Positions 11,822 to 62,186 of a DNA stretch of 64,000 bases are shown here, one piece after another (positions within the stretch are counted from its first letter, which is position 1; every line of letters begins with the position of its first letter). A model generated the notes under the pieces. That model had not been told where the DNA came from, made no database searches, and saw only the letters and a list, made by a program, of their open reading frames with translations. Made by a program: the position numbers and the translations under genes. This DNA is from Onishia taeanensis (lineage in GTDB: Bacteria > Pseudomonadota > Gammaproteobacteria > Pseudomonadales > Halomonadaceae): the NCBI RefSeq assembly GCF_003268885.1, contig NZ_QLSX01000003.1:124001-188000 (forward strand), given 5' to 3'.

Positions 11822-11869
11822 GTTAGTCGTATAGAGGGTTAGTCGTATAGAGGGTTAGTCGTATTGCGG
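11822..11869. repeat. 16-bp tandem repeat, three copies, after hsdR
   Basis: GTTAGTCGTATAGAGG occurs at 11822 and 11838, with a third variant copy, GTTAGTCGTATTGCGG, at 11854 and a decayed start of a fourth at 11870. The array begins 8 bp after the hsdR stop and ends at the edge of the hsdS remnant. Confidence 0.92.
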
Positions 11870-11870
11870 G

Positions 11871-12085
11871 TTAGCCGATGGCCGCGTCGACGAGCTTTTC
11901 GCTTTTGCCGATCAGGCGAACATCAGATGAAGAATGCCCTGGCCCGCGTCAACAAGCTGACTCAGTCGATCCTCGCCAAGGCCTTCCGTGGTGAGTTGAC
12001 CGCCGACTGGCGCGCCGCTAGTCCCGAGTTGATCAGCGGTGAACATTCCGCCGAGGCGCTGCTGGGGCGCATCAAGGCCGAGTAA
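11871..12085 (+). pseudogene. Remnant of a second hsdS, C-terminal end, frameshifted
   Basis: The frame at 11877 gives [17 protein letters not shown] and stops at 11930. The next frame starts ATG at 11927 and gives [13 protein letters not shown], then [15 protein letters not shown], ending IKAE at 12085. Together they match the usual HsdS end, in which an ELFAFADQ segment and a [17 protein letters not shown] segment are in one frame. The intact hsdS here ends differently (SLLQKAFSGEL), so this is not a recent copy of it. The second frame could still be translated as 52 residues through the ATGA overlap. Most likely it is debris from exchange at the locus. Confidence 0.8.
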
Positions 12086-12148
12086 TGAACAACTGAAGCG
12101 GGCAACAATACGGTGCAGCACCGCCATACTCGCAAGAGGAGACGCCTG

Positions 12149-13879
12149 ATGCCACAGCAGGATGAACGGGAACTTCTGTCCGACCGGCAGCTGCGCAAGC
12201 TGGCCGGCGAGGCGGCCTTCGGTCGCGGCGTGGAGTATTTCCGTGAGGGCATGGTGGTGGGCTGGAACCAGAGCGGCACCACCATCAACGCCGACGTGGA
12301 GGGCACCGAGCGCTACCGCGTGATCCTGAAACTGAGCAAGCGCAGCCTGGAAGGCGGCTGCGACTGCCCGGCCTCCGAGGGCATCGATTTCTGCAAGCAC
12401 TGCGTGGCGGTAGCCCTGGCGTACCGGACGAATCAGGCCGAGGAGGCTCGCCTGACGGAAGGCGATGCTACGGACCGGATACAGGCCTACCTGCAGCAGA
12501 TGGACAAGCCGTCGTTGATCGAGGCGCTGCAGTCGCTGATCGCACAGGACCCGATGCTGCGCCAACAGTGGTCGTTGCGGGCCGATGCGGTGCTCGGAGT
12601 GCTGGATCACAAGGCGCTGAAGAAGCGCATCACGGCGGCCTTCCCCCTCAACCGTGACCTGTACCGTTACGGCCAGGTCAGCGCCTACTTCGCCAGGGCC
12701 GAGGTCATCGTCGAGCAGCTTGCCGAGCAGGCCCCGCAGCTGCCGGCGGACAAGTGTCTGGCGCTGGTGGACCATGCGCTGTCGCGCATGGCTAGGGCGC
12801 TGGAGACCATCGATGACTCTGGCGGCTTTCGCTTTCACTGCGAGCAGACCCTGCAAGACACGCATGTCAGGACCGTCAGGCGCCTCGATTGGTCCCCCGC
12901 TAAGCTGGCGACCTATCTCTATGACAAGGCGTTCGGCGGCAGCGAGGATAGCTATCCGTCGATACCCGATGCCTATGCCGAGGCGCTGGGTGACGCGGGC
13001 ATGGCGGCCTATCATGCCTGCCTGCAGCGCGCCTGGGATGACCTGCCGGCCCTGCCGACAAAGGCTGGCTGGATGACGAAGTATCGCTATATTCGTCTGC
13101 GTGATCCCCTGCTCAAGCGCGCCGAGGCCGCCGGCGACCTGCCCGCCATGCTGGCGCTCTACCAGAAGACGGCCAGCGATGAGCGGGATTGCCTGGACGC
13201 TGCCCAGCGGTGTATCGCCCATGAGGCCTGGGATGAGCTGGAGACGTGGCTGGCGCGAGCGAAGCAGGCGGCATCCCGCGAGTTTCCGCATCAGCAGGTG
13301 GAACGCCAGCGGCTCGAGGTGCGCTTGTACCTGCAGCGTGGTGAGGAAGAGGCCGCCGCAGCGCTGCAATGGGAGATCTACCAGAGCACCCGGAAGCTGG
13401 GGGATTATCGCCAGCTGGTGAACCTGGCTACCGAGCATAACCTGGCCGTCGATTATCGTCGGCGTGCCCACGACTGGCTGGTGGACGGGCTGGACAAGAC
13501 GCCTCAGTTACCCTTTGGCTGGGGCCCGCGGATGGTCGACAGCCTGCTGGAGATCTATCTGTTCGAGGGGCGCTGGGACGAGGCCCAGGCCTTGTGCGCC
13601 GAGCGGGCGGTGTCGCCCACGCTGCTGCATCAGCTGGCCCAGGCGCTGAAGGCGCCCGACGAGAGCCTGCCGCTCTACCTGCGCCTGGTGCGTCATGAGG
13701 TGCAACAGACCAACAACCAGGGCTACCGGGATGGCATCGCCCTGTTGCGGGAGCTGCAGGGCCGGCTCGAAACTGCGCCTCAGCGCGATGCGTTCGAGGC
13801 GGCGCTGGCGCAGCTGCGTAGCGAATTCAAGCCCAAGCGCAACTTCATCAAGTGGCTGAACGAGGCCTTCTCCGGGTAA
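12149..13879 (+). CDS. SWIM zinc-finger protein
   Basis: This 576-residue protein has a SWIM motif, CxCx8CxH, formed by C71, C73, C82 and H84 (CDCPASEGIDFCKH). A long, mostly helical region rich in Leu, Ala and Glu follows, with repeat-like pairs suggestive of TPR or HEAT folding. SWIM domains bind DNA or proteins. The role is unknown. I chose the ATG at 12149 because AGAGGAG lies 8 bp upstream. It follows the hsd operon directly and shares its orientation, so it may belong to the restriction island. The ending FIKWLNEAF is common in this family. Confidence 0.8.
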   Translation: MPQQDERELLSDRQLRKLAGEAAFGRGVEYFREGMVVGWNQSGTTINADVEGTERYRVILKLSKRSLEGGCDCPASEGIDFCKHCVAVALAYRTNQAEEARLTEGDATDRIQAYLQQMDKPSLIEALQSLIAQDPMLRQQWSLRADAVLGVLDHKALKKRITAAFPLNRDLYRYGQVSAYFARAEVIVEQLAEQAPQLPADKCLALVDHALSRMARALETIDDSGGFRFHCEQTLQDTHVRTVRRLDWSPAKLATYLYDKAFGGSEDSYPSIPDAYAEALGDAGMAAYHACLQRAWDDLPALPTKAGWMTKYRYIRLRDPLLKRAEAAGDLPAMLALYQKTASDERDCLDAAQRCIAHEAWDELETWLARAKQAASREFPHQQVERQRLEVRLYLQRGEEEAAAALQWEIYQSTRKLGDYRQLVNLATEHNLAVDYRRRAHDWLVDGLDKTPQLPFGWGPRMVDSLLEIYLFEGRWDEAQALCAERAVSPTLLHQLAQALKAPDESLPLYLRLVRHEVQQTNNQGYRDGIALLRELQGRLETAPQRDAFEAALAQLRSEFKPKRNFIKWLNEAFSG

Positions 13880-13921
13880 GCGGCGATGCACGACCCGAGC
13901 GGGGTGCCGACGCGTATCGGC

Positions 13922-14785
13922 TCACTCCCGCTCGTCCTTAGTGGAACGCAGTAGCACCCGGTCCATGCCGCGGGTGCTCAGTATCCGCTTGAGCGCTGCG
14001 AACAGATGAGTGGGCACCGTTACCGCATATCGGGGTCGCGGACGTGGGCTTTCTAGCGCGTGGATCAGCTTTTTCACCACGGCCTCGGGGCCGAGGGTGA
14101 AGGCGCCGCCACTGTCGCTGCCGGCTAGCCGTGCCTCGACCTTCTGGTAAGTGTTGGCATGGGCGCTGTGGGCGGTATCGATATGTGCCTGGAAGGCGCG
14201 ATGCGCATTCTCGCGAAACCGGCTGGTGATGGGGCCGGGCTCGATCAGGCTGACATGAATGCCGCTGCCCTTGAGCTCCATGCGCAGGGTGTCGGTGAGG
14301 CCTTCGAGGGCGAACTTGGAACACACGTAGGCGCCACGATAGGGCAGCGCGGCAATGCCGAGTACCGAGCTGTTCTGCACGATGCGGCCGTGCCCCTGGG
14401 CGCGCATCATCGGCAGCACCAGGGTGGTGAGTTCATGGGTGCCCAGCAGGTTGGTTTCCAGTTGGGCCCGCAGAACGTCACGGGACAGATCCTCCACCGC
14501 GCCGGGCTGGCCGTAGGCGCCGTTATTGAATAAGGCCGTCAGTTGCCCGCCGGTGCGCTCTTTTATCGCCTCCACCGCGGCCTCGATCGAGGCGCTGCTG
14601 GCAAGGTCCAGCGGCAGGGTTTCCAGGCCTTCCTCCTTGAGCCGCTCGACATCCGCTTCGGCCCGCGCCGTGGCGAACACCCGCCAGCTGCGGGCCGTCA
14701 GGGCATGCGCCGCGGCGTGGCCGATGCCGCTCGAGCACCCGGTGATCAGTATGCTCTTTGTCGTCGTGTCTGGGGCCTGTGACAT
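13922..14785 (-). CDS. SDR-family NAD(P)-dependent oxidoreductase
   Basis: This 287-residue classical short-chain dehydrogenase has the cofactor loop TGCSSGIG (15-22), an NNGAYG segment (88-93, the usual NNAG motif), S140, and the catalytic Y153 and K157 in YVCSKFALEGL. IEPGPITSRF follows, as usual. The substrate is unknown. The longer C-terminal part (about 200-287) resembles retinol- or sterol-type SDRs. CAGGAG precedes the ATG. The gene stands alone on the minus strand between the restriction island and sbcC. Confidence 0.87.
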   Translation of the reverse strand: MSQAPDTTTKSILITGCSSGIGHAAAHALTARSWRVFATARAEADVERLKEEGLETLPLDLASSASIEAAVEAIKERTGGQLTALFNNGAYGQPGAVEDLSRDVLRAQLETNLLGTHELTTLVLPMMRAQGHGRIVQNSSVLGIAALPYRGAYVCSKFALEGLTDTLRMELKGSGIHVSLIEPGPITSRFRENAHRAFQAHIDTAHSAHANTYQKVEARLAGSDSGGAFTLGPEAVVKKLIHALESPRPRPRYAVTVPTHLFAALKRILSTRGMDRVLLRSTKDERE

Positions 14786-14937
14786 CCGTTGCTCCTGATA
14801 GCTTTTTTGTTTGTGGCGGCTGGCTTGCGGTGCCTGTCAACGTTGTTGGTCGGCTCGCCATGCGCACGCTTGTGTTCCGCGCTCTCGTGGCAATATGGGA
14901 GCGTAACCCGTATGTGATAGCTCACTCTTGGGTTTGC

Positions 14938-19619: not shown

Positions 19620-20010
19620 GAATAGCAGGTCACCATCATACTGCCAATGAGCAACCCGCTGCAGGGGCCATCGCAGATTGGTGTACGTGGATTAAGCGTT
19701 CATCGCCTGGGGCAATGGGCCTCTGTGGCGACTTGCAAAGGCCGGGAATGTGAACTTGACTAAAGGCTAGTTGCTAAGAATGCATATTTTGCTAGCGAAG
19801 CCTGTGCATGGCAGCTATCAAGCCACAGATCATGGTTCTTAGGGGCCGTGGCATGGTTTTCGGACGCTGACACTACAGGGCCATGCCGTTTCACCCACAT
19901 GGCGTCTCATGCAAGAACGGGATTAATCCGCACTGGCCTAATCCGCTGGGCATTAGCCACAAGCGAATAACAACCGCATAACACGCGAACAGAACCGAAG
20001 GATGCAGCCT

Positions 20011-21163: not shown

Positions 21164-21284
21164 GCTTGAACAGGCGCTTTGTATCGCGGCATTGCGACAG
21201 GCGTCATTCATGATGTGTCACGCTTGAAGAGGGGCTATCGGCTACAATGTGGGTTCTTCACATTTTCCTGCCGCCGAGCCGCCG

Positions 21285-21905
21285 ATGTCCTCTGCTTCTT
21301 TATCGTCCACTACCGTTATCGGTGAGCATGCGCTTGCCAACCGTGCCCTTGCCGATCAGGCCATCGCTGCCTCCCGTGCTTGGGTCGAAGCCATGGTAGT
21401 AGGCCACAACCTATGCCCTTTCGCCGGCCGCGAGGTGAAGCGCGATACCATTCGCTACGTGGCGGTGTCGGCCCATGATTGGAACGAGACCCTGGGTGCG
21501 CTGCTGGCTGAGTGCCAGCGACTCGACGAGGACGCCACCCTTGCCACCACGCTGCTGGTATTGAGCGATGGGGTAAACGACTTCGACGACTATCTGGATC
21601 TGCTAGGCGTTGCCGAGGCGCTATTCGAGGAACAGGGCTACGAGGGCGTCTACCAGTTGGCGAGTTTTCACCCGGACTATTGCTTCGATGGCGTCGAGGA
21701 AGACGATCCCGCCAATTACACCAATCGCTCGCCCTGGCCGATGCTGCATCTGCTGCGCGAAGACGCCATCGCCGAAGCCTTGGCCCACTACCCCGACCCT
21801 GAAGCCATTCCTGAGCGCAATGCCGCTGCCATGACGGCGCTGGGGGGCGAGGCGCTGGCAAGCAAGCTGGCGACATTGATGAAGACGGGTGAGCCACGCA
21901 CTTGA
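21285..21905 (+). CDS. DUF1415 family protein
   Basis: This 206-residue protein has the DUF1415 features: WVEAMVVGHNLCPFAGREV near residues 30-50, LVLSDGVNDFDDYLDLL, and LASFHPDYCFDGVEEDDPAN with NRSPWPMLHLLRE. The function is unknown. The invariant Cys and His residues hint at catalysis or metal binding. The start at 21285 is the ATG before MSSASL. The ribosome site is weak. Its final codons ACT TGA lie inside the first unit of a 14-bp tandem repeat. Confidence 0.85.
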   Translation: MSSASLSSTTVIGEHALANRALADQAIAASRAWVEAMVVGHNLCPFAGREVKRDTIRYVAVSAHDWNETLGALLAECQRLDEDATLATTLLVLSDGVNDFDDYLDLLGVAEALFEEQGYEGVYQLASFHPDYCFDGVEEDDPANYTNRSPWPMLHLLREDAIAEALAHYPDPEAIPERNAAAMTALGGEALASKLATLMKTGEPRT

Positions 21906-21955
21906 AAGACAGTACTTAAGAGACGGTGCCTGAGAGACGGCACTTGATTAGCGGC
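21900..21955. repeat. 14-bp degenerate tandem repeat spanning a stop codon
   Basis: Units are ACTTGAAAGACAGT, ACTTAAGAGACGGT, GCCTGAGAGACGGC and ACTTGATTAGCGGC, each 14 nt. The TGA of the DUF1415 gene is inside the first unit. Confidence 0.85.
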
Positions 21956-22032
21956 GCCATCATCGCCATTGATGATAGTAGATGACGTTTTACGGGCCTT
22001 CATCCCGAGGGCCTTACTCCACAGGAGGTGAC

Positions 22033-22533: not shown

Positions 22534-22579
22534 AGGCACTCACCTTGGCGCCTGGTGGAGTGACGTATTACGCCCCCTG

Positions 22580-22778
22580 ATCGAGCGCCTCGAGCAAGCA
22601 CTCTAAGCGAATGCTTTGAGTAAGTACGCGGAGCGAGTACCTTGAGTAATGTCGCTTGAGTAGTCGCTTCAGTCAGTACCTTCAAATGGTAAATCAGTCC
22701 CTTCACGAGTCGCACGGTCAGTACTCAAGATCCGTGCCCACGATACGTACTCATGATACGTACTCATGATAAGTACTA
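22580..22778. repeat. Degenerate 12-14-bp repeat array with AGTAC core
   Basis: The tpx-osmC gap is filled by short units around AGTACT/AGTACC. The last ones are perfect: GATACGTACTCAT at 22742 and 22755, then GATAAGTACTA at 22768. Earlier units are diverged (for example GCGAGTACCTTGAG and TCAGTACCTTCAAA). The array runs up to the osmC ribosome site. Confidence 0.75.
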
Positions 22779-22788
22779 AGGAGACAGT

Positions 22789-23220
22789 ATGAGCATCAAG
22801 AAGAAAGGTTCTGCAGAATGGCAAGGCAGCCTGAAAGATGGCAAGGGCACGGTTTCGACAGAAAGCGGTGCACTCTCCTCTAATCCCTACGGCTTCAAGC
22901 AGCGCTTCGAGGGGCAGGCCGGTACCAACCCTGAAGAGCTGATCGGCGCCGCCCATGCCAGCTGTTTCTCCATGGCGTTCTCGATGATGCTGGGCGAGGC
23001 CGGCCTCGAGCCTGAAAGCATCAAGACGGAGGCTACCGTTAGCCTCGATCAGGACGACAGCGGTTTCACCATCTCTGCCATACACTTGAGCTGCGTGGCG
23101 AAGATTCCCGGTGCCGATCAGGCCACCTTCGATGATGCCGCGAACAAGGCCAAGGAAGGGTGCCCGGTCTCGAAGCTGTTCAATGCCGAGATCACGCTGG
23201 ATGCGCGCCTGGAAAGCTAA
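22789..23220 (+). CDS. osmC: OsmC-family peroxiredoxin
   Basis: This 143-residue protein matches OsmC: TNPEELIGAAHASCFSMAFS with the catalytic C59, and the second Cys C125 in EGCPVSKLFNAEI. OsmC proteins reduce organic hydroperoxides in the cytoplasm. AAGGAGA precedes the ATG. It is likely stress-induced in relatives; here the upstream region consists of tandem repeats, so the promoter could not be placed. A long hairpin follows. Confidence 0.92.
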   Translation: MSIKKKGSAEWQGSLKDGKGTVSTESGALSSNPYGFKQRFEGQAGTNPEELIGAAHASCFSMAFSMMLGEAGLEPESIKTEATVSLDQDDSGFTISAIHLSCVAKIPGADQATFDDAANKAKEGCPVSKLFNAEITLDARLES

Positions 23221-29863: not shown

Positions 29864-29880
29864 GGGAGCGGCTCTCTTGG

Positions 29881-29966
29881 CAGTACTTATTTGGTAGTAC
29901 TTAATTTCATAGTACTTATTTGGCTGTACTTGTTTGGGCAGTACTCGTTGGGCCGTACTCTTCAGG
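29881..29966. repeat. 14-15-bp degenerate tandem repeat, six units, upstream of cdd
   Basis: Units include CAGTACTTATTTGG, TAGTACTTAATTTCA, TAGTACTTATTTGG, CTGTACTTGTTTGGG, CAGTACTCGTTGGG and CCGTACTCTTCAGG. All share the core GTACT. The array occupies most of the nupC-cdd gap, so a message from nupC would include it. Confidence 0.88.
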
Positions 29967-32241: not shown

Positions 32242-32274
32242 GATAGCAATTGCCTTGGTTCGTCTATTGTTTTG

Positions 32275-32316
32275 GAAATGCGTGTTCTGTAAATGCGTGT
32301 TTTGAGAACGCGTGTT
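32275..32316. repeat. 14-bp degenerate tandem repeat upstream of tsx
   Basis: Units are GAAATGCGTGTTCT, GTAAATGCGTGTTT and TGAGAACGCGTGTT, with a weaker fourth, GCTGTAACGCTAGA. They lie 34 bp before the tsx start, in its 5' leader or promoter. Confidence 0.8.
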
Positions 32317-32365
32317 GCTGTAACGCTAGAGCACCCGGAGAAGCAGGAACCTGCTGGTGGAAATA

Positions 32366-32745: not shown

Positions 32746-32850
32746 GCGATGCGTGATAGCCCTTTGCTGCATCGGATGCTGCTTGCGGTCATGGATAAGG
32801 ACCCAGGACGCGACGGTTGTGGCATTTGTTGTGCGCATACATTAGCCGGC

Positions 32851-32884
32851 TAATTTTCAACCAGTACTAATTTTCAACCAGTAC
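32851..32884. repeat. 17-bp perfect tandem repeat upstream of cyoA
   Basis: TAATTTTCAACCAGTAC occurs twice in direct succession (32851 and 32868), 40 bp before the cyoA start. It again contains the AGTAC core seen at other loci. Confidence 0.9.
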
Positions 32885-32923
32885 TAAGGTTAGCCTGATT
32901 TCGTGCCCTGACGAGGTCGTAGG

Positions 32924-42920: not shown

Positions 42921-42966
42921 CAGGCCCTGTGCGACAGGCCCTATGCGACAGGCCCTGTGAGACAGG
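42921..42966. repeat. 14-bp tandem repeat abutting the tenA stop codon
   Basis: On the minus strand the units after the TGA are GCCTGTCTCACAGG, GCCTGTCGCATAGG, GCCTGTCGCACAGG and a decayed GCCTGCCAAAATGG. The first begins immediately after the stop codon of tenA. Confidence 0.88.
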
Positions 42967-42967
42967 C

Positions 42968-45052: not shown

Positions 45053-46918
45053 TCAGCGGGCAGCGCCGGGGTACCAGACATAGTTCCAGGTTTCCGTCAG
45101 CGGTTGGCCACGCAGGGTTAGCGATAGCCGCATGTCGGCTGGCTGATCGCCGTCGGGCTGGAGGCGAAAACTCGCCCGCCATGTCTTGCCGTCGGGCAGC
45201 AGCTGCACCTGCGGCGTGAGGGTCTCGCCGCTGGACGTGGTCAGCGTCATCTCCACGGGTTGGCTGGCATCCAGGCTCGACAGCTCGCCGCCGCGAAAGT
45301 CGACGATGAAATGACGGCGACTCCTGGGCGGAGGATCGTCCTGGCCGGGTACGCCTCCCCAACCCTGGCGGGTATGCACCACACCGGCACGCTCGAGAGT
45401 CGGCGGATAGGCGCCGAAGGTCGAAGTGCGGTAGCGGTAGGTTCGTGACTCGCCGGCCTTGAAGGGCGCATCGGGCACCCAGTAGGCGATGATATTGTCG
45501 TTGGTCTCGTTCTCGGTGGGAATCTCTACCAGTTCCACACCGCCGGACCCCCAGTCACCGCCCTGTGGCGTTACCCACTGGCTGGGGCGCAGATCATAGC
45601 GCGCTTCCATGTCCAAATAATCGTCGAATGCACGAAGGCGTTGCACCAGGCCGAAGCCTTGGGGCGTGTCGTCGCGCAGTGAGGAGATATGCAGCTGCGA
45701 GGGATTGCTCAGCGGACGCCAGATCCACTCCCCCTTGGCGGTGTGCATCGACAGGCCGTTCGAGTCATGGACGCGGGGCCGATAGTCATCGTCGTGCACG
45801 CGCTCCAGACTCCCGTGCCAGAACATGCTGGTCAGCGGGGCGATGCCGAGCTTCTTCACGTCCTCGCGGGCAAAGAGACGTGCCTGAACATCGACGGTAC
45901 TGGACTCGCCAGGGGTGATATCGAAGCGGTAGGCGCCACTGACCGAGGGACTGTCGAGCAGTGCTAGCACCTGGATATGCGTGGCGTCTGGTGCCGGCTG
46001 GACCAGCCAGAAGTCCGTGAACGCCGGAAACTCCTCGCCCTGTGGCGAGGCGGTGTCGATGGCCAGCCCGCGCGCCGATAGGCCGTAGCTCTGGTCGCGG
46101 CCGATCAGACGGAAATAGGACGCGCCGAGGAAGACCATAAATTCGTCGCGGTAGTCGCCGTGGTTGAGCGGGTAATGCAGGCGAAAGCCCGCGTAGCCGA
46201 TATCGTTCCGGGCCTGGTCGTCGCTGGACTGTTTGGCCAGCGCCTCGCCGATGGGGGCCGCCGCATCGTCATAGCGGAAATACCCCTGATCGAAGGGCAG
46301 CGGTGACACGTCGACCTGGCCGCTGTTGTCGAGCGACTCGACCAGGTTCAGGCCTACCGGCTGGTTGTAGAGAAAACCGGTGTGGAATAGCTGCACCTCG
46401 AAGAGAGACTGATCGCGCCACAGGGCCTTTTCGGGACGGAAGCGAATCTGTCGGTAACGGTCATAATTTATGTCCTGCAAGGCTTCCGGCAAGGCGTTAT
46501 CGTGAGCCTCGAACGGGGCCTGAGCGAGCTGTTTGGCCCGCGAGGTGACCTCGGCATACAGCGCGTCCAAAGACGCCATGCTGGTCTTGGCGCCGGTAGC
46601 TGACTGGCTTGTGGTGGCGTCGGTGGCTGCGGTGTCACTGCTCTGGGATTCCAGGCCCTGGGCGCCAGGGCTCTGCTCATCAGGGCTCTGAACATCGGAG
46701 CTTTGCGCATCAGAGCTTTGCGCATCGAGATTGGCATCTGCCGATGCATCGGCTGTCGGCGCTTCGGCCCAGGCCGGCGTTGCTATGCCGAGTCCAAGCC
46801 CAAACGAGGCGAGCCCCGTCCAGAGCAGGGTGGTGGTCAACAGGGTCGTCGCAAGACGTCCTGCCTGATCCGGGCGAGCATGGCTGGCTCGCCCTGACAT
46901 CCCGCGTTGTATCAGCAT
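45053..46918 (-). CDS. opgG: Periplasmic glucan biosynthesis protein OpgG
   Basis: This 621-residue periplasmic protein has a signal peptide (cleavage after PAWA near residue 51), then a low-complexity linker with 5-residue repeats of AQSSD type (about 65-95). The OpgG domain follows: INYDRYRQIRFRPEKALWRD, YFRYDDAAAPIG, GASYFRLIGRDQSYGLSARG, WIWRPLSNPS and DRRPSQW-like WVTPQGGDWGSGGVELVEIP. OpgG builds or branches osmoregulated periplasmic glucans. It follows opgH by 111 bp in the same direction. The linker lengthens the protein compared with E. coli (511). Confidence 0.94.
   Translation of the reverse strand: MLIQRGMSGRASHARPDQAGRLATTLLTTTLLWTGLASFGLGLGIATPAWAEAPTADASADANLDAQSSDAQSSDVQSPDEQSPGAQGLESQSSDTAATDATTSQSATGAKTSMASLDALYAEVTSRAKQLAQAPFEAHDNALPEALQDINYDRYRQIRFRPEKALWRDQSLFEVQLFHTGFLYNQPVGLNLVESLDNSGQVDVSPLPFDQGYFRYDDAAAPIGEALAKQSSDDQARNDIGYAGFRLHYPLNHGDYRDEFMVFLGASYFRLIGRDQSYGLSARGLAIDTASPQGEEFPAFTDFWLVQPAPDATHIQVLALLDSPSVSGAYRFDITPGESSTVDVQARLFAREDVKKLGIAPLTSMFWHGSLERVHDDDYRPRVHDSNGLSMHTAKGEWIWRPLSNPSQLHISSLRDDTPQGFGLVQRLRAFDDYLDMEARYDLRPSQWVTPQGGDWGSGGVELVEIPTENETNDNIIAYWVPDAPFKAGESRTYRYRTSTFGAYPPTLERAGVVHTRQGWGGVPGQDDPPPRSRRHFIVDFRGGELSSLDASQPVEMTLTTSSGETLTPQVQLLPDGKTWRASFRLQPDGDQPADMRLSLTLRGQPLTETWNYVWYPGAAR
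46636..46725. repeat. In-frame 15-bp repeat within opgG
   Basis: Units CAGGGCTCTGCTCAT, CAGGGCTCTGAACAT, CGGAGCTTTGCGCAT and CAGAGCTTTGCGCAT (46666-46725), preceded by two diverged units, encode AQSSD, AQSSD, VQSPD, EQSPG, AQGLE and SQSSD in the linker after the signal peptide. Confidence 0.9.
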
Positions 46919-48955: not shown

Positions 48956-49441
48956 CGGCGTACCACGCTGCGCTGCAGGAGACGGCTAGGGCTTGACTGT
49001 TCGTAGGCAGATGGCCTGGGCCGACCGACCCATGACCGACGGCGGCGCTGAGGTGCGCTGCGCGTCGAAAGTCTGGGTGCTGGGGCACCTGCTGTCCGGG
49101 GCGTACCTGCGCCGCACAGCGGGTGTTGTGGAGTCATCATCACTTCCAGTGGTTCTCCATTAGCCCCCGCCGGCAGTCCCTGCGCAATCCGGGGAGGAGA
49201 TTTAAGTAAGCATCGGGGCGAGCTGTGGCATTAGGTGCGCTGTTCTTGTACTGCCCAGATGCGGATCTTGGTCTTGCCATGGTCGCGACAAACAGCGCGA
49301 TTTGACGCTGAGCGAACGCAAAAAGCTTATCGGTGCTGCCTTTACCTGGGAAGCCAGTCAGGCGTGGCCGGTTCGCTCTGGCGTGGTGATGGCAACGCTC
49401 AGTGCATGTCGGACCTTCTATATTGGGCTCGTTACATCGAG

Positions 49442-49479
49442 CTCTGTATATCGGCTCTGTATATCGGCGCTATATCAGG
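49442..49479. repeat. 13-bp tandem repeat in the opgH upstream gap
   Basis: CTCTGTATATCGG occurs at 49442 and 49455 and a diverged CGCTATATCAGG follows. It is in the gene-free region between opgH and the DUF4870 gene. Confidence 0.85.
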
Positions 49480-50905: not shown

Positions 50906-50912
50906 CGACAAT

Positions 50913-51766: not shown

Positions 51767-51837
51767 GGGGTTCCTCCTTGGGTCGCCTGGGCGATCAGAG
51801 TAGGCTTGGCGGCGAATATTTTCATGAGCATACGACG

Positions 51838-52497
51838 ATGACCCAGCCTCTGTCCTGCCCGCTGTGCGACGCGCCTGATGCGGTGGCCTACCATCGGGAT
51901 GCGCGGCGCGACTACCTGCAGTGTCAGGTCTGCACCCTGGTCTTCGTGCCGCCTCATCAGCATCTGGATGCCGATGCCGAGCGTGCGGTCTATGACCAGC
52001 ACCAGAATTCGCCGCAGGATGCCGGCTATCGACGCTTCCTGTCGAGGCTGCAGGCGCCCCTGCTTGCGCGGCTGACGCCCGGCGCAGAGGGACTCGATGT
52101 CGGCAGCGGCCCGGGGCCGACGCTCTCGGTCATGTTCGAGGAGGCGGGTCATCCGATGGCCATCTTCGACCCCTACTACGCTCCGGACCCGGCGCCGCTG
52201 TCACGAAGCTTCGATTTCATCACCGCCACCGAGGTGGTCGAGCACATGGCAGCCCCCGGTGACGAGCTCATCCGCCTGGCCGGGCTGCTGCGTCCAGGCG
52301 GCTGGCTGGGGCTGATGACCAAGCGGGTCACCAGCCACGAGGCCTTCGCCGGCTGGCACTATATTCTCGATCCCACCCATGTCTGCTTCTTCAGCGAAGC
52401 GAGCTTTAGCTGGCTCGCCGAGCGACTCGCCATGGACGTGACCTTTCCCGACCATGACGTCGTTCTCCTAAGGCGGTCTTCTAAGACTCTCTTCTAA
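51838..52497 (+). CDS. Class I SAM-dependent methyltransferase with N-terminal Cys pairs
   Basis: This 219-residue protein starts with CPLCDAPDA and QCQVCTLVF, two CxxC pairs likely to bind zinc. It then has SAM motif I GLDVGSGPGPTLS, and VVEHMAAPGDELIRLAGLL with LRPGGWLGLMTKR. The substrate is unknown. It begins at the ATG at 51838. The ribosome site is weak. Its last 36 bases are part of a 14-bp tandem repeat, so the C-terminus may have been remade by the repeat. Confidence 0.85.
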   Translation: MTQPLSCPLCDAPDAVAYHRDARRDYLQCQVCTLVFVPPHQHLDADAERAVYDQHQNSPQDAGYRRFLSRLQAPLLARLTPGAEGLDVGSGPGPTLSVMFEEAGHPMAIFDPYYAPDPAPLSRSFDFITATEVVEHMAAPGDELIRLAGLLRPGGWLGLMTKRVTSHEAFAGWHYILDPTHVCFFSEASFSWLAERLAMDVTFPDHDVVLLRRSSKTLF

Positions 52498-52517
52498 GAA
52501 TCTCTACTAAGACGTAT
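52462..52517. repeat. 14-bp repeat running through a stop codon
   Basis: Units GTTCTCCTAAGGCG, GTCTTCTAAGACTC, TCTTCTAAGAATCT and CTACTAAGACGTAT cover the end of the methyltransferase gene and 20 bp beyond. Each has CTAAG at the same place; only the third reads it in the stop frame. Confidence 0.85.
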
Positions 52518-52777: not shown

Positions 52778-54217
52778 ATGTCCCGGCAATTGCTTTCCTT
52801 GGCCCTTGCGCCCCTGCTGGGGCTCTTCATTCTCTGCATCGGCAATGGCTTCCTGGCCTCCCTGATCACCCTGCGCCTGGACGCGGCGGGTGAGTCCGCC
52901 GTGGTGATCGGCTGGGTGTCGTCAGCCTACTTCATCGGCTTGGCGCTGGGGGCGCTGTTCAATGACCGCCTGCTGCTTCGCATCGGGCACATCCGCGCCT
53001 ATGGCTGCTTTGCTTCGCTGGTCGCGGTCACGGTGCTGCTGCAGGGCCTGTGGCTCGACCCTGTCAGCTGGTTCGCACTGCGCCTGATTGGCGGCTGGGC
53101 CACGGTGGGGGTCTATCTGGTCATCGAGAGCTGGCTGCTGGCCAGTGCCGATACCAAGGTACGTGGTCGCCTGCTAGCCATGTACATGATCTCTCTTTAC
53201 GCCGCCGGCGTGATTGGTCAACTGCTGCTCGGCGCAACCAACGCCATGAGCGATGCCGCGCCCTTCATGGTGGTGGGCATGCTGGCCTCGCTGTCGGTGC
53301 TGCCCATGGCGATGATTCCGCGGGTATCGCCGCTGATCGAGCACGCCGAGCCGCTGTCACCGCTGCGGCTGATCACGCTGACGCCCACCGGGGTGATGGG
53401 CTGTTTCGGCTCGGGACTGGTCGTGGCAGCGGTTTATAGCCTGCTGCCCCTCTACCTACAGCGCAGCGGTCTGGGTGTCGCGCAGATCGGACAGATGATG
53501 GCGGTGGTGGTACTCGGGGCCATGCTGCTGCAATACCCGATCGGGCGCTGGTCGGACAAGCACGACCGTCAGTTGGTGCTGATCATCATCGGCGCCAGTA
53601 CGGCGGGGCTGTCGATGGCGCTGCTGATGGTGCCGGGGGAGTCGTGGCTGACGGGCGGGCTGCTGTTCCTGCTGGGTGGTGGCGTCTTTTCACTGTATCC
53701 GGTCGCGGTCAGCCATGCTGCCGACCGGGCCCCGGCCGGTGCCCTGGTGCGCATGAGCCAGGGCTTGCTGCTGATCAATGCGTTGGGGTCCACGGTCAGC
53801 CCGCCGTTGATCACTCCGGTGATGGCAGCGTTCGGCGACGGAGGCCTGTTCTGGTCGATGGGCGCCGTGGGGCTTGGTCTGGTCGGCTTTTTCGTCTGGC
53901 GACGCAGCGTCCGCCCGGCGCCGCTGCCCATGGCGCCCTTCGTGGCCACCCAGACTCAGACCCTGGCAGGGGCTGAGCTTGGCGTCACCGACGCGCAGAT
54001 ACAGGGAGCCGTCGAGCACGAATACCTCGAGGACCTTTCTTTGGCAGTGCCGGATGTCGCCGTCGCCGAGCCTATCGTCGGCCCGCCGCCGGCCGATGAG
54101 GCGCATATCGCCTACTACGACGATGCCGACCCGCAAGATGTGTCGGAGGAAAAGCCGCATGGGATGTCCGGTGATGGCGGGCCGATCCGCAGTGAGACCG
54201 CGTCGAGCTCGCATTGA
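52778..54217 (+). CDS. MFS transporter (YcaD-like)
   Basis: This 479-residue protein has 12 helices and MFS cytosolic loops such as GALFNDRLLLRIGHIRAYG (loop 2-3) and GRWSDKHDRQ (loop 8-9). It resembles the YcaD group. The last 80 residues are an acidic, Pro-rich tail without helices. The substrate is unknown. It stands alone in the same direction as the acyl-CoA dehydrogenase. The stop is in the first unit of a 14-bp repeat. Confidence 0.87.
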   Translation: MSRQLLSLALAPLLGLFILCIGNGFLASLITLRLDAAGESAVVIGWVSSAYFIGLALGALFNDRLLLRIGHIRAYGCFASLVAVTVLLQGLWLDPVSWFALRLIGGWATVGVYLVIESWLLASADTKVRGRLLAMYMISLYAAGVIGQLLLGATNAMSDAAPFMVVGMLASLSVLPMAMIPRVSPLIEHAEPLSPLRLITLTPTGVMGCFGSGLVVAAVYSLLPLYLQRSGLGVAQIGQMMAVVVLGAMLLQYPIGRWSDKHDRQLVLIIIGASTAGLSMALLMVPGESWLTGGLLFLLGGGVFSLYPVAVSHAADRAPAGALVRMSQGLLLINALGSTVSPPLITPVMAAFGDGGLFWSMGAVGLGLVGFFVWRRSVRPAPLPMAPFVATQTQTLAGAELGVTDAQIQGAVEHEYLEDLSLAVPDVAVAEPIVGPPPADEAHIAYYDDADPQDVSEEKPHGMSGDGGPIRSETASSSH

Positions 54218-54267
54218 GATCAACGACTGAGGTCGACTATTGAGATCAACGACACGAGGCCAACGAC
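54213..54267. repeat. 14-bp degenerate repeat spanning the MFS stop codon
   Basis: ATTGAGATCAACGAC is found at 54213 and 54239. Related units, CTGAGGTCGACT and CACGAGGCCAACGA, lie between and after. The first unit holds the stop codon TGA. Confidence 0.75.
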
Positions 54268-54351
54268 AGTCGCTGCGGCTTTCGCCTAATGGCTTAGGTC
54301 CCGGTCGCCAACCTACTATCGCGGTTAACCTTTTCTCAAGAGATGCCCGCG

Positions 54352-56157
54352 ATGACGCCCTATCACGCTCCGCTGCGCGACACCCGTTTCGTGCTCGAGG
54401 AACTCCTAGAGCACACCTCTCTCGACCTGCCCGGCTTCGAGGACACCAGCCCCGAGCTGCTCGATGCCGTGCTTGACGAAGCCGCTCGGCTGGCCGGTGA
54501 GGTCTGGGCGCCGCTCAACCTGCCCGGTGATCGCCAGGGCTGCCGCCGCCAGCCGGATGGCAGCGTGACGGTACCCGATGGCTTCATCGAGGCCTATCAG
54601 GCCTATGCCGAGGGCGGTTGGAACGGCATCGGCGTCGCCGAGGCCCAGGGGGGGCAAGGGCTCCCCGAGGTGGCGGCCAGTGCGGTGCAGGAAATGCTGC
54701 ATGGTGCCAACATGGCGCTGGGGCTGTGTCCGATGCTCACCGCCGGTGCTATCGAGGCACTGTCGCATCACGGCAGCGAGGCGCTCAAGGCGCGCTACCT
54801 GCCGAAGCTGATCGAGGGCGTCTGGACCGGCACCATGAATCTCACCGAGCCTCAGGCGGGCTCGGACCTGTCTCGGGTTCGCACCAAGGCCATTCCCTGT
54901 GCTGACGGTGAGGGCGACCACTATCGCCTCCACGGCCAGAAGATCTACATCACTTGGGGCGAGCACGAGGCGGCCGAGAACATCATCCATTTGGTGCTGG
55001 CGCGCACCCCGGATGCTCCTGAGGGCAACAAGGGCATCTCCCTGTTCCTGGTGCCCAAGTTCCTGGTCGATGATAACGGTGCGCTGGGGGCCCGCAACGA
55101 TGTCACCTGTGCGTCTATCGAGCACAAGCTCGGCATCCACGGCTCGCCCACCTGCACCCTGAGTTTCGGCGAAGGCGAGGGGGCTATCGGCTATCTGGTC
55201 GGTGAGCTCGGCCGCGGGCTCAATCATATGTTCACGATGATGAACGAGGCCCGCCACAAGGTCGGCATCCAGGGCATCGGCGTCGCCGAACGCGCCACCC
55301 AGCAGGCCTTTGCCTACGCCGCCGAGCGCAGCCAGGGCCGTGCGCCTGGTTCGCGCGGCGGCGAGTCGGCCGCGATCATCGACCACTTCGACGTGCGCCG
55401 CATGCTGCTGTCGATGCGCTCGCGCACCGATGCCCTGCGCGCTCTGGCACTTTATTGTGCAGCGCAGATGGATGTTGCCCGCCATCACGGCGATGCGGCG
55501 ACCCGCGATGCCGCTCAGGCACGGGTCGACGTGCTGATCCCGGTGGTCAAGGCGTTCTCCACCGACCAGGCCGTCGATATCGCCTCGCAGGGGATACAGG
55601 TGCATGGTGGCATGGGCTATGTGGAAGAGACCGGTGCCGCTCAGCTGTGGCGCGACGCCCGCATTGCACCGATCTATGAGGGCACCAACGGTATCCAGGC
55701 GCTGGATCTCGCCGGGCGCAAGCTGGCCCGGGATGAGGGGGCCGCCCTTGCGGCTCTGCTCGATGAGGTAGAAGCCACCGCCGGGCAGCTCGCCGATAAG
55801 CTGGCGCTCAGCGCCCAGGGCGCCGCGCTGAAAGCCGGTGCCGATGACCTGCGAGCCGCCACGGCAGTAGTGCTGGCCGCCGGTCGCGATCCGGCTCAGG
55901 GCGCGGATGCCGTTCAGGCCTACGCGACTCCCTTTCTGCAACTGACGGGGCATGTGCTGTGCGCCTGGCAGATGGGACGCGCAGCGCTGGCCGCTGAGGC
56001 CGCGCTTGCCGCGGGGTCTGACGATCAGGCCTTCTATCGCGCCAAGTTGGCGAGTGCCGACTTCGTCCTGCGCCACTGGCTGCCAGTGGGGCGAGCCAAC
56101 CGGGCGGTGATCGAGGCGGGGCTCGAGAGCCTGGCGATGGTGGGGCTCGATCACTGA
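54352..56157 (+). CDS. Acyl-CoA dehydrogenase with C-terminal extension (DmdC-like size)
   Basis: This 601-residue flavoenzyme has ACAD motifs: GTMNLTEPQAGSDLSRVRTKA (FAD and substrate loop), QKIYITWGEH, and APIYEGTNGIQALDLAGRK with the catalytic Glu. The last 150 residues are the extension found in longer ACADs, including 3-methylthiopropionyl-CoA dehydrogenase DmdC. It oxidises an acyl-CoA to an enoyl-CoA. Which chain cannot be told. The ATG at 54352 has AAGAG 9 bp upstream; the ATG at 54343 is too close to it. The two genes downstream catalyse the next steps. Confidence 0.92.
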   Translation: MTPYHAPLRDTRFVLEELLEHTSLDLPGFEDTSPELLDAVLDEAARLAGEVWAPLNLPGDRQGCRRQPDGSVTVPDGFIEAYQAYAEGGWNGIGVAEAQGGQGLPEVAASAVQEMLHGANMALGLCPMLTAGAIEALSHHGSEALKARYLPKLIEGVWTGTMNLTEPQAGSDLSRVRTKAIPCADGEGDHYRLHGQKIYITWGEHEAAENIIHLVLARTPDAPEGNKGISLFLVPKFLVDDNGALGARNDVTCASIEHKLGIHGSPTCTLSFGEGEGAIGYLVGELGRGLNHMFTMMNEARHKVGIQGIGVAERATQQAFAYAAERSQGRAPGSRGGESAAIIDHFDVRRMLLSMRSRTDALRALALYCAAQMDVARHHGDAATRDAAQARVDVLIPVVKAFSTDQAVDIASQGIQVHGGMGYVEETGAAQLWRDARIAPIYEGTNGIQALDLAGRKLARDEGAALAALLDEVEATAGQLADKLALSAQGAALKAGADDLRAATAVVLAAGRDPAQGADAVQAYATPFLQLTGHVLCAWQMGRAALAAEAALAAGSDDQAFYRAKLASADFVLRHWLPVGRANRAVIEAGLESLAMVGLDH

Positions 56158-56309
56158 GCACCTGCAGCATTTGGCACTGCAGCATTTTCCACAGAGAGGT
56201 AGGCTAGAGAGGATTGGGCGATGTGAGGCGCGTCGCCCGCCTTCTTGTTCCTGTCGGCGCCTCTGGCAGCAGTCGCTGCCAGCGGGGCGGCATCACGGAG
56301 ACCCTCAAC

Positions 56310-57158: not shown

Positions 57159-57354
57159 GATGATGGTGATGCGCGCTTGCCGGGCCGCCTGAGGTCGGCT
57201 CGGCGCAACCTGCGGGGCTTCAGTAGCCGATTTTTCGCTTGCACAAGACCTTGTTCAAGACAAAGGTGGGATCGTTTGCCAACCGAGCGCTTGCTAGGTT
57301 GGACAGCATCGGCCCTCGGTGCCCGGGGGCGAGTCCTACCACACAGGAGTCATC

Positions 57355-58128: not shown

Positions 58129-58154
58129 GCGGCAAGCGCCTTCCAGCAAACGTT

Positions 58155-58188
58155 AACGGCCGTGGTGATAACACCACGGCCGTTTTTT
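58155..58188 (+). terminator. Terminator after the crotonase gene
   Basis: AACGGCCGTGGTG pairs perfectly with CACCACGGCCGTT around ATAA, followed by six T residues in all. It separates the beta-oxidation genes from the minus-strand exporter gene. Confidence 0.95.
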
Positions 58189-58234
58189 ATGCGCTGGGCA
58201 TTATTTTTGCCACGTTATGCCATGCCTGCGTCGA

Positions 58235-59125: not shown

Positions 59126-59268
59126 CCAGCATCCTTGTGTCGGCAGGGGGAGGCAGCAGGTTACGGCCGATAGGGGGCTAACGGAAGTCTGTTTCGACCA
59201 AAGCGATGCTGGCGGTGGAACGCCGGATGACCTAGCGTAATAAGCTGATGGACAACATTCGACTATCC

Positions 59269-59299
59269 GGCAGAGGCGGCGACGCCTCTGCCTTTTTTT
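59269..59299 (+). terminator. Orphan plus-strand terminator
   Basis: GGCAGAGGCG pairs with CGCCTCTGCC around GCGA and is followed by seven T residues. No plus-strand gene ends upstream: both neighbouring genes are on the minus strand. It may end a small RNA or an antisense transcript from the exporter promoter region. Confidence 0.85.
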
Positions 59300-59448
59300 G
59301 TTGCTGAATTCATGCATGATCTGGCCATGATCATGAATGCCACGCTAACCATAGCCCATCGCAATGCAACGAGTGGCCCGGCTTTGCATTGACGCCTTGT
59401 TACCCCTTACGTCTGTCCCTTTCTCCTGGCGATATATGTCTACGCCTC

Positions 59449-60027
59449 TTATCCCCGCTCCATCAGGCGTTTGAGATCGCTGACCATCGAAGGAATCGGA
59501 TCACTGTTGCGCATCAGCAGGCGAGCGTCGCCTTGTTCGTTGAAGACGAAAATGCCGCTTGAGTGCGAGACGTCATAGTTGCCGTTTTCGTCCTTTTCGC
59601 CATAGCCGTAGCTGACCCGGTAGCGGTTGGTCAGCGCATCGAGTTGGGCGGTGCTGCCGGTAAGGCCGATGAACTGTGGCCCGAATACGTCGGTGTATTG
59701 CCGGAGCCTCGCCGGGGTATCGCGCTCCGGGTCTACGGAAACGAACAGCACCTGTATATCGTCACGAGCGGGTTCATCAAGCTTCTTGATAGCAGCCGTC
59801 ATCCGCGCCAGGGATGTGGGGCAGACATCCGGACAGTGCGTGTAGCCGAAGTACAGCAGGGTGGTCTTGCCGGTATAGGCGTCTTCTTCGACCTGCTGGC
59901 CGTTCTCGTCCATCAGGCTCAAATCAAGGGCCGGCATGATGTCGGAGATATCCGAGGTGTGCCAGTTGGGGTCTTCGCAACCTGCCAGCAACACTGACAA
60001 GAGGATCGGAGAAAGCCACTTGAGCAT
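59449..60027 (-). CDS. SCO1/SenC-family copper-handling protein
   Basis: This 192-residue protein has a lipobox LLAGC (C17), a thioredoxin-like fold with copper-binding CPDVC (C65, C69) and a His in YDVSHSSGIFVF. SCO proteins place copper in CuA sites of cytochrome oxidases. It lies 20 bp after the PCu(A)C gene in the same direction, so the two are likely one operon. The bo3 oxidase in this window has no CuA, so its target is probably elsewhere. Confidence 0.93.
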   Translation of the reverse strand: MLKWLSPILLSVLLAGCEDPNWHTSDISDIMPALDLSLMDENGQQVEEDAYTGKTTLLYFGYTHCPDVCPTSLARMTAAIKKLDEPARDDIQVLFVSVDPERDTPARLRQYTDVFGPQFIGLTGSTAQLDALTNRYRVSYGYGEKDENGNYDVSHSSGIFVFNEQGDARLLMRNSDPIPSMVSDLKRLMERG

Positions 60028-60047
60028 CAGGGGGCTCCTGGACGTGG

Positions 60048-60518
60048 TCAGTGCATGGTCACGGGGGAAACGACCTCAAAAGTGGCAGGCAACTGCTGGC
60101 CGTCTGCGAAGAGCAGCACCACCTCGACGTCATCACCCACTTCCAAGGGGGCGACGCGGTTCATGAACATAAGGTGATAGCCTTTCGGCGCAAACTCAAA
60201 GCTTTTACCGGCGGCAATGTCGATTGCCGGCACGGCCTGCATGCTGGCCATCCCGTCCTTTTCCATGCTCATGTGAATCTCGGTATTTTTGAAGGCGTCG
60301 GTCTGAGCGCCCACCAGCGTCACGTCTTCAGCGCTATCGTTTTGCAGGCTGAAGTAGCCGGCGCCTGGCATATCGCCCGGCAGAAGGCTGAGCCGAGCAT
60401 CCTGAAGGGAAAGCTCTTGTGCGTGCGCCATGCCGCCGGTCAGCAGTAGTGCCAACAGTCCGCAGGCCCACTTGCCACGCGCGTGTGTCAGAGCACGGGT
60501 TCTTTGCTTGTTCGCCAT
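60048..60518 (-). CDS. Periplasmic copper chaperone PCu(A)C
   Basis: This 156-residue protein has a signal peptide (cleavage near MAHAQ, residue 33), and the copper motif H-M-x-MEKDG-M-x2-M with the later GYHLMFM. PCu(A)C hands copper to SCO and the oxidase. The 60048 gene is upstream of SCO in transcription order. Length is typical. Confidence 0.92.
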   Translation of the reverse strand: MANKQRTRALTHARGKWACGLLALLLTGGMAHAQELSLQDARLSLLPGDMPGAGYFSLQNDSAEDVTLVGAQTDAFKNTEIHMSMEKDGMASMQAVPAIDIAAGKSFEFAPKGYHLMFMNRVAPLEVGDDVEVVLLFADGQQLPATFEVVSPVTMH

Positions 60519-60678
60519 CAGGATGTTCTCCGCTGGGGTGGTGTCAACGCCATGCCATGATGATACGGCGCTTCAGGGGGATCTCGCCGATCCAGACCTG
60601 ACCGACCACTGTGAAGGTTTGGACCGGCAGGCCGGACAAGACAAGCGTATGTCGTGAAGCCGGGTAGTCGTTTCTTGA

Positions 60679-61023
60679 TCAGCAGATAGCCGACAGGCCA
60701 CAGTTCGAGGTGTATTCGCGCGAGTTCACGTCGAGCGTGAGGCGCTTACGACTGGTGTCGTAGAAAAAGGAAGCATAGCCGTCGTCGTCTGCCGTCTTGT
60801 AGGCGCCGCAGATGCCATAGCCGTACTGCACTTCCTGCAGGTTTTGCAGTTCGATCGCGCTGGAGGTATCGAGGGAGGTGGCCAGCGCCTGCTGGATTTC
60901 GCCGTCCACACTGTCGTCAGATATGGCTTGGCCGCCAAAGATCAATGCTGCGAGGGCAATAGTGCCGATCACAGGGACGATGATCATGAGTAAAAACGGG
61001 CGTGAAATAGTCATGACGAGCAT
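60679..61023 (-). CDS. Hypothetical protein with N-terminal membrane segment
   Basis: This 114-residue protein has one hydrophobic segment (residues about 9-30) and a small, probably periplasmic domain with C72, C108 and C114. The end reads SNCGLSAIC. I do not recognise a family. No clear ribosome site is visible for either ATG (61023 or 61014). It stands apart from the PCu(A)C gene. Confidence 0.6.
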   Translation of the reverse strand: MLVMTISRPFLLMIIVPVIGTIALAALIFGGQAISDDSVDGEIQQALATSLDTSSAIELQNLQEVQYGYGICGAYKTADDDGYASFFYDTSRKRLTLDVNSREYTSNCGLSAIC

Positions 61024-61161
61024 TTTATGGAGAATCCAGCAGGCCGGGCAAGCGGGCCGCTATGCGGCGGATTGTCCTACCTGACGTTCGGCCATGACAG
61101 GCGCCGGTCGACAAGGGTAGCGTGGAGCTCTACGTCTTAAGCCCTAAGCCAGGAGGCGATG

Positions 61162-61503
61162 ATGAACCATCCCGAACTCGACATGGACGACGTGCAGCGT
61201 CGCTTGCTGGAACAGCGTAAGCAACTGGTGGAAGAGAGCGATGCCAGCGCCGATAGCCGCGATACGGTGGCGCTTGACCAGACCAGCACCGGGCGACTGA
61301 CGCGTATGGATGCGTTGCAGACACAGGCCATGGCGCAGGCTGCCCAGCGGCGTCGTGAGGCGGCGATTCGCTTCATTGACCTGGCGCTCAAGCGTATCGA
61401 CGACGACTGCTTTGGTGAATGCATCGAATGTGGTGAGTACATCGCGACCAAGCGACTGGGGCTGAATTACGCCACCCTGAAGTGCATCGACTGCGCTGAA
61501 TAG
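61162..61503 (+). CDS. TraR/DksA-type C4 zinc-finger protein
   Basis: This 113-residue protein has a helical hairpin and zinc finger C87-x2-C90 and C108-x2-C111 (CIECGEYIATKRLGLNY). Such proteins bind RNA polymerase in the secondary channel. It lacks the length of DksA (151), so it is nearer to the TraR/YbiI group. AGGAGG is 5 bp before the ATG at 61162 and 2 bp before the ATG at 61159, so I take the former. Confidence 0.87.
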   Translation: MNHPELDMDDVQRRLLEQRKQLVEESDASADSRDTVALDQTSTGRLTRMDALQTQAMAQAAQRRREAAIRFIDLALKRIDDDCFGECIECGEYIATKRLGLNYATLKCIDCAE

Positions 61504-61628
61504 CGCGCTGCGCCTGGGCAACGACATGGCGTCAATGATTCAATAGCGCCTCTGGATCGCACTTCTGATCGCGTTGCTGACAGAAATGTTGATCGCGCTT
61601 TGGTTTCAACCTCTTCAGGACGCTTCTC

Positions 61629-62042
61629 ATGCCTATTCCTCCACCTTCCAAGCCCGGTAGCGACGAGACTGCTCGCACCATGTTGCGCCTGCTCGGCGGT
61701 TTCGCTGCGCCGGCGGCCATCTATCTGGTTGTCTGGGAGGCTGTGGCACGCTGGGTGTTGCCCAATATTGCCGCAAGCGGCAAAGGCTTCGTTATCGACC
61801 TGTCTAGCGTGTTGATTCCCTGCGTCGGCGTGCTGGCAAGCATCTTCATCACGGGCGTAAAGGCCGGCCGGATGCTGGGCGGCGGCGTGATGGCGGTGTT
61901 CTTCCTGATCCTGTATTTCTCGTCCGGCGTGGCGTTCAGCTGGTCGCCGGTCGGCCTTACCTTCGCGGGCATCGCGTTGGCATGGGGGCTTGCTCGCTTC
62001 TGCCCGACGATGAAGCCTGATCTGAGCACCGCGTTTGGCTAG
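61629..62042 (+). CDS. Small inner-membrane protein of unknown function
   Basis: This 137-residue protein has four hydrophobic segments (about 20-42, 53-76, 82-100, 105-122) and no motif I recognise. CAGGA lies upstream of the ATG. It follows the DksA-like gene by 125 bp in the same direction. Confidence 0.72.
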   Translation: MPIPPPSKPGSDETARTMLRLLGGFAAPAAIYLVVWEAVARWVLPNIAASGKGFVIDLSSVLIPCVGVLASIFITGVKAGRMLGGGVMAVFFLILYFSSGVAFSWSPVGLTFAGIALAWGLARFCPTMKPDLSTAFG

Positions 62043-62132
62043 TCCGGGCCTCAATCCGCTATTTCCAAGACACCTACACGACAATCTCAACACACGCCCA
62101 AGCACGCATCAGACCCTCCTGGCGCCGGCAAT

Positions 62133-62186
62133 CAGCTGCTCATCTAAGTATCTAAGTATCTAAGTATCTAAGTATCTGAGCAGCTG
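62133..62186. repeat. Four 8-bp repeats inside a perfect inverted repeat
   Basis: TCTAAGTA is repeated four times (62143-62174). The block is framed by CAGCTGCTCA (62133-62142) and its exact complement TGAGCAGCTG (62177-62186). The rest of the 200-bp gap between the membrane protein and App1 genes shows nothing I can support. Confidence 0.9.

Follow-up and report, generated by a model that had tools for sequence, protein, structure and literature searches.

Short repeats between bacterial genes are known in several forms, among them dispersed repeats of the REP/BIME type (repetitive extragenic palindromes and bacterial interspersed mosaic elements) and CRISPR arrays (clustered regularly interspaced short palindromic repeats). 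Bacterial slippage has mostly been discussed for units of 1–6 bases, and tandem duplication for whole genes. The subject of the present analysis is a set of degenerate tandem arrays with units of 10–17 bases in the intergenic DNA of Onishia taeanensis. They were noticed in a stretch of 64,000 nucleotides (contig NZ_QLSX01000003.1, positions 124,001 to 188,000), referred to below as the window, and were followed into the rest of the genome and into relatives. The most similar described class is that of the bacterial minisatellites or variable number tandem repeats (VNTRs), which arise by slipped-strand mispairing. Common to both are head-to-tail copies, degenerate units, copy-number differences between strains, and local origin. 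The arrays described here differ in their high density (49 of 512 intergenic stretches), in their restriction to periods of 10–17, and in being raised in one genus without a rise in longer periods. They differ from REP/BIME elements and CRISPR arrays in that no sequence is common to the loci and the units adjoin, with no unique spacers of regular length.

A second point of comparison is the endosymbiont Candidatus Portiera aleyrodidarum. In two reports, its intergenic tandem repeats are linked to the loss of dnaQ, its genome is described as reduced with large intergenic regions, and Halomonas and Chromohalobacter are named as free-living relatives (PMC5322561, PMC7821994). In contrast, the genome considered here is of free-living size and dnaQ is present. 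Another source mentions the use of Tandem Repeats Finder (TRF) (PMC12226641). No published account of the array pattern in free-living Halomonadaceae was found in a search by titles and the beginnings of abstracts, most subscription journals lying outside that search.

Arrays were detected with TRF, rows in the window being accepted at a score of at least 30 and intergenic counts being made at scores of at least 40 and at least 60. As a second measure, adjacent near-perfect copies were counted for each period in intergenic DNA and compared with dinucleotide shuffles. The main own-genome sample comprised 806 kb of the 3.74-Mb genome, with 107 kb of intergenic DNA in 512 stretches; a smaller TRF sample of 464 kb consisted of the window and 400 kb of the same genome. 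A simple script was used for gene calling, and some intergenic stretches are therefore misdrawn. The window lies within a 406-kb contig. Two sets of relatives are referred to by handle: G138 is a second genome of the same species, in 2 contigs, and G001–G005 are five other species of the genus.

The array habit is real and genome-wide. At a TRF score of at least 40, the 464-kb sample contained 58 intergenic arrays against 1.25 in dinucleotide shuffles, and at a score of 60 it contained 31 against 0.0. The period distribution also differed strongly from that of the shuffled controls. The own-genome set includes the window in which the arrays were picked out; two 200-kb samples without it gave 8.3 and 6.8 arrays per 10 kb. 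The repeat size is bounded on both sides. In the 806-kb sample, near-perfect adjacent copies at periods 8 and 9 were at chance level (28 observed against 32.7 shuffled, and 7 against 8.3). The counts then rose above the shuffles at periods 10 (9 against 2.7) and 11 (6 against 0.8), reached their maximum at periods 12 (11 against 0.5), 13 (12 against 0.2), and 14 (11 against 0.0), and fell at periods 15, 16, and 17 (5, 3, and 4, each against 0.0). Summed over periods 10–17, 61 pairs were observed and 4.2 expected, and all periods from 18 to 45 combined yielded a single pair.

The same contrast between period classes appears when lineages are compared by intergenic stretch, N-containing stretches being excluded. 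A pair at periods 11–17 was present in 49/512 stretches of the own genome, 19/237 of the other species of the genus, and 3/67 of genus g7, compared with 6/450 of other Halomonadaceae, 3/224 of ten genomes outside the family, and 22/899 of 67 named non-Halomonad loci (nearly all gammaproteobacterial, plus a Neisseria and a Roseibacillus). For periods 18–40, the corresponding counts were 1/512, 2/237, 1/67, 3/450, 0/224, and 4/899. Per 10 kb of intergenic DNA, the own genome held 4.86 pairs at periods 11–17 against 0.75 in other Halomonadaceae (p = 7e-8), and 0.09 against 0.38 at periods 18–40 (p = 0.32); these p-values assume independent pairs, which multi-copy arrays slightly violate. Seven stretches chosen beside matches to the hexamer AGTACT were excluded from the period-pair comparison sets; a stretch of G133, which holds such a match and no array, was kept.

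Within the genus, TRF density per 10 kb of intergenic DNA was 7.3 in G003, 7.2 in G005, 4.4 in G004, and 2.4 in both G001 and G002. Most other family samples gave 0–3.4, but a 40-kb sample of G034 (genus g7) reached 12.2 arrays per 10 kb. These family samples are mostly 20–40 kb per genome and too small for a per-genome rate. The evidence from genus g7 is thin, its 20-kb samples containing no array in G147 and G125 and two in G136. Outside the family, G073 (loci L104–L105, GC 0.70) had 4 intergenic arrays in 5.5 kb, and the other nine genomes 0 or 1 each. In a 50-kb piece of E. coli MG1655, TRF gave one row, and the 4.5 kb of intergenic DNA held no near-perfect pair. Genomes of similar G+C had far fewer arrays, so that neither of the two outcomes named in the sequence-only reading as refuting it was observed. 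The suggestion that the habit is peculiar to Halomonadaceae did not survive, since it is absent from most of the Halomonadaceae sampled and some unrelated gammaproteobacteria are array-rich. Moritella dasanensis (L173) has 7 short-period intergenic arrays in about 3.3 kb, and an Alteromonadaceae metagenome-assembled genome (L186) has 5 in about 2.4 kb; these lineages may share the same habit. Overall, array formation looks several times faster in this genus than in other Halomonadaceae.

Two rival explanations concern these counts. According to one, the arrays stem from chance, base composition, or faulty assembly. The own assembly is indeed a draft of 30 contigs, but the shuffles are near zero and the 2-contig genome G138 is alike, with 60 arrays in 56.2 kb of intergenic DNA compared with 55 in 57.0 kb; this explanation is refuted by the shuffle and G138 counts. 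According to the other, bacteria in general have this size class, and the genus only tolerates or keeps more arrays, through relaxed removal and without a raised rate of origin. In its favor, the 65 arrays found in 240 kb of 79 named loci likewise have periods centred on 12–15, and the named non-Halomonad loci (201 kb) show an excess of 31.5 at periods 10–17 against 7.0 at 18–40; N-containing stretches were kept in this count and raise both the observed and the shuffled values by about 3 per period. The array-rich loci L173 and L186 point in the same direction. Because such periods also occur outside the family, a preference for this size may be common to bacteria at large, and the rate would be the special part here. 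A general tolerance should nevertheless raise both period classes, and the 18–40 class is not raised (1/512 against 3/450 in other Halomonadaceae), which leaves tolerance alone an improbable account.

A third alternative is that the arrays are functional, i.e., repeated binding sites for a regulator or another protein that are kept under selection, with the protein setting the period. Hexamer pairs 11–18 bases apart are about four times as frequent as in shuffled sequence (1023 against 267), but this excess is spread over many words. No word is common to the arrays, the top hexamer reaching 5/512 stretches, and none of the 19 testable arrays contains a block conserved beyond chance, the mismatches between copies being evenly spread. 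Given that there is neither a common word nor a conserved core, the arrays are, judging from their sequences, not a dispersed element and, taken as a class, not binding sites; on the first point, the sequence-only reading was borne out. AGTACT was considered as a common motif on account of several window loci and 21 genome matches, and was rejected with AGTACT pairs in only 2/512 stretches. Such pairs, 11–18 bases apart, number 21 in the own genome against 10 for the reversed control, which counts toward a function. At least one AGTACT pair is present in 80 of 151 family genomes, the highest counts being those of G138 (25), G114 (24), and the own genome (21). For the reversed control (a TCATGA pair 11–18 apart), G200 of genus g4 is at the top of the 151 with 44, and genus g15 mostly has about 20. 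One locus in line with a function is L011, whose positions 1500–1600 (own genome C8, about 145587–145681, outside the sampled 806 kb) are intergenic and contain seven intact AGTACT hexamers. These cores lie 14–15 bases apart with diverged spacers, so that the locus looks core-conserved, unlike the other tested arrays.

The placement of 76 arrays also bears on function. Fewer arrays than under random placement lie within 40 bases of a gene start (15 against 25.1 ± 4.0) or between divergent genes (10 against 20.5), and both counts run against regulatory sites. Arrays between convergent genes are commoner (18 against 12.4), and arrays within 15 bases of gene 3' ends are in mild excess (26 against 16.6 ± 3.5), which can follow from the avoidance of gene starts. 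The proposed tie to stop codons was not upheld, since 13 of the 76 arrays span a gene 3' end against 11.2 ± 3.1 under random placement. Such a distribution is what a neutral process would leave if its products were removed near promoters, and selection for binding sites is very unlikely to account for the arrays as a class.

The arrays of the window, on which the comparison with relatives rests, are as follows.

11822–11874, no strand: array of period 16, 3.3 copies (TRF), just 3' of the type I restriction gene hsdR (9408–11813).
21897–21950, no strand: degenerate array of period 14 at the end of gene 21249–21905 (DUF1415); no TRF row.
22641–22673, no strand: array of period 12–14 (TRF: 12), upstream of an osmC-family gene (22789–23220).
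22713–22777, no strand: array of period 13, 4.4 copies (TRF, 22721), directly upstream of the osmC-family gene.
29877–29960, no strand: array of period 14–15 (TRF), between cytidine deaminase and nupC-type transporter genes.
32268–32323, no strand: array of period 15, 3.7 copies (TRF).
32850–32887, no strand: array of period 17, 2.2 copies (TRF), upstream of cyoA.
42921–42967, no strand: array of period 14, 3.4 copies (TRF); one unit shorter in G138.
46666–46726, minus strand: coding array of period 15, 4.1 copies (TRF), in opgG (MdoG family), ahead of the conserved domain.
49436–49476, no strand: array of period 13, 2.5 copies (TRF); 14 bases shorter in G138.
52465–52515 (TRF 52477), no strand: array of period 13, 2.8 copies, over the 3' end of the open reading frame 51778–52497.
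54213–54252, no strand: array of period 13, 3.1 copies (TRF), over the 3' end of gene 52778–54217.
56155–56195, no strand: old two-copy duplication of period 15–16 after gene 54343–56157; no TRF row.
62142–62177, no strand: array of period 8, 4.5 copies (TRF), outside the 10–17 class.

The sequence-only reading had listed eleven loci whose periods clustered at 13–17. TRF places an array at nine of them; the other two (21900 and 56158), without a TRF row at score 30, are backed by unit-sized gaps in relatives. Some of its periods were one base off, those at 52462 and 54213 being 13 and not 14, and that at 32275 being 15 and not 14. The array at 11822 is adjacent to a type I restriction region (9408–13879) whose hsdR is of the EcoAI type. 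Its 53 bases are identical in G138. In the stretches sampled from the five other species, G001–G005, its flanks are absent, which is what an accessory island would show.

Comparison with relatives reveals arrays at different stages of expansion. At 32850, two 17-base copies are present in the window, G138, and G005, and one in G004, G003, G001, and G002. The array at 22721 has 4.4 copies in the window, 3.5 in G138, and 2.0 in G004, and is unexpanded in G005; that at 52477 has one unit more in G138 than in the window and is likewise unexpanded in G005. At 21900, exactly 28 bases (2 × 14) are missing in G004, G005, G001, and G002, and G003 differs by 24. G003 lacks 15 bases at 56158 that are present in G138, G005, and G004. 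The array at 29877 has equal length in G138, and G005 and G004 have no array there. Copy number also changes between strains: of the 41 arrays aligned on the contig, 8 differ in length between the window's genome and G138, a pair with a noncoding substitution rate of 2.0%. Only 3.4 kb of the 46 kb of noncoding DNA in the alignment belong to arrays and their 20-base margins, yet 8 of the 23 noncoding indels of 8–60 bases lie there, and 14 of the 23 are 10–17 bases long.

These observations are best explained if the arrays are intergenic minisatellites generated by slipped mispairing during DNA synthesis, which is probably the case. A short direct repeat 10–17 bases away would let the growing strand re-pair one step back, and the stretch between the short repeats would be copied twice. 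The duplicated pair would itself form a longer repeat and might then gain and lose units until point mutations degraded the array, while arrays near gene starts would be purged. The slip may occur at the replicating polymerase, in which case the window of 10–17 bases could reflect how far back the primer end can re-pair within the polymerase-bound stretch. Loops of this size may be too large for MutS repair and so escape it. A common mechanism had been proposed from the window alone, and a mutational process is indeed likely, given that the sequences differ and the size is bounded; no single fixed length is involved, and slipped mispairing over a limited distance describes the process better than the proposed "fixed-length slip". 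Two variants were discarded. Hairpin-driven slippage is not indicated, as pairs of units show no stronger folding than their shuffled counterparts (mean z 0.19, 65 arrays), and neither is error-prone copying of units, as the share of transitions among differences between array copies (0.62) is near that among substitutions between strains (0.58).

The slippage model can be examined through microhomology, since a duplication primed by a repeat of k bases leaves k extra matching bases. Among unexpanded relatives, a prior repeat of 5–8 bases at the later period was present for 3 of 6 loci of the 10–17 class (21900, 22721, and 52477). At 21900, an 8-base repeat at spacing 14 already exists in three of four relatives (G004, G005, and G001), and at 52477 a 5-base repeat at spacing 13 exists in G005. 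In the own genome, 21 exact two-copy arrays had k = 0 in 4 cases, k = 1 in 1, k = 2–4 in 9, and k of at least 5 in 7. Hence k was at least 2 in 16/21, compared with chance values of about 17% (and about 55% at k = 0), but the large k may stem from decayed longer arrays and two of the rows are really 7- and 8-base arrays. The named loci gave k = 0 in 5/12 and k of at least 2 in 6/12. Beyond the two reservations just given, several points weigh against slippage. In G001–G005, exact two-copy arrays had k = 0 in 5/9 cases and k of at least 2 in only 3/9, and the relatives at 32850, 56158, and 29877 showed no prior repeat above background. The strain length differences are mostly unpolarised as gain or loss, and plain slippage alone does not predict the cut-off at 17. 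Moreover, none of Ku, dnaQ, mutS, the ExoI C-terminal domain, RecJ, XseA, and the number of DnaE copies separates array-rich from array-poor genomes. The microhomology evidence is mixed; on balance it leans toward slippage at short repeats but does not prove it at every locus.

A bounded length would follow directly from a different origin, in which two nicks 10–17 bases apart produce a staggered break that is filled in and ligated, so that the overhang is duplicated with no need for shared bases. The 5/9 two-copy arrays without shared bases in the other species agree with this route. The own genome, however, has no match to the Ku family (PF02735), which 10 of the 60 searched genomes possess, and its 16/21 two-copy arrays with at least 2 shared bases also argue against it; break filling is consequently a rather unlikely source. 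Returning to slipped mispairing, the gene content offers no simple cause for the raised rate. dnaQ, mutS, ExoI, RecJ, and ExoVII are present in all 19 array-rich and array-poor genomes, the dnaQ model scoring above its cut-off in 19/19. RecJ scores barely exceeded the curated cut-off in the seven genomes of the own genus and in G033, and the other 11 genomes narrowly missed it; a gap of a few bits on either side was not read as a difference.

Coding DNA behaves differently from what was first supposed, namely that frame selection fixes the period at 15 in sbcC, sbcD, and opgG. Coding pairs generally have spacings divisible by 3, and this holds for control genomes as well as for the own genome. 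No period-15 TRF row was found in sbcC or sbcD; the array in opgG is real. Pairs at lags 12 and 15 taken together number 29 in 392 kb of the own genome, 20 in 288 kb of the genus, 13 in 313 kb of other family genomes, and 28 in 344 kb outside the family. A special coding period of 15 was rejected, the own count at lags 12 and 15 being above the family sample but not above the outside sample, and the coding arrays do not clearly belong to the intergenic excess.

The significance of these arrays lies in their size. With a bounded middle class of 10–17 bases raised in this genus, what sets the length of a duplication becomes testable in a free-living bacterium. The arrays are also of practical use as ready-made markers for strain typing. 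A more specific reading can be offered only tentatively: a lineage-specific state of replication or repair may make tandem duplications of 10–17 bases and almost none longer, the size window reflecting a physical length of the enzyme complex. Candidates for this length are the distance over which a primer end re-pairs, a flap, or a repair patch. If this were true, the genus, and perhaps genus g7 as well, would be natural mutators for one defined class of mutation.

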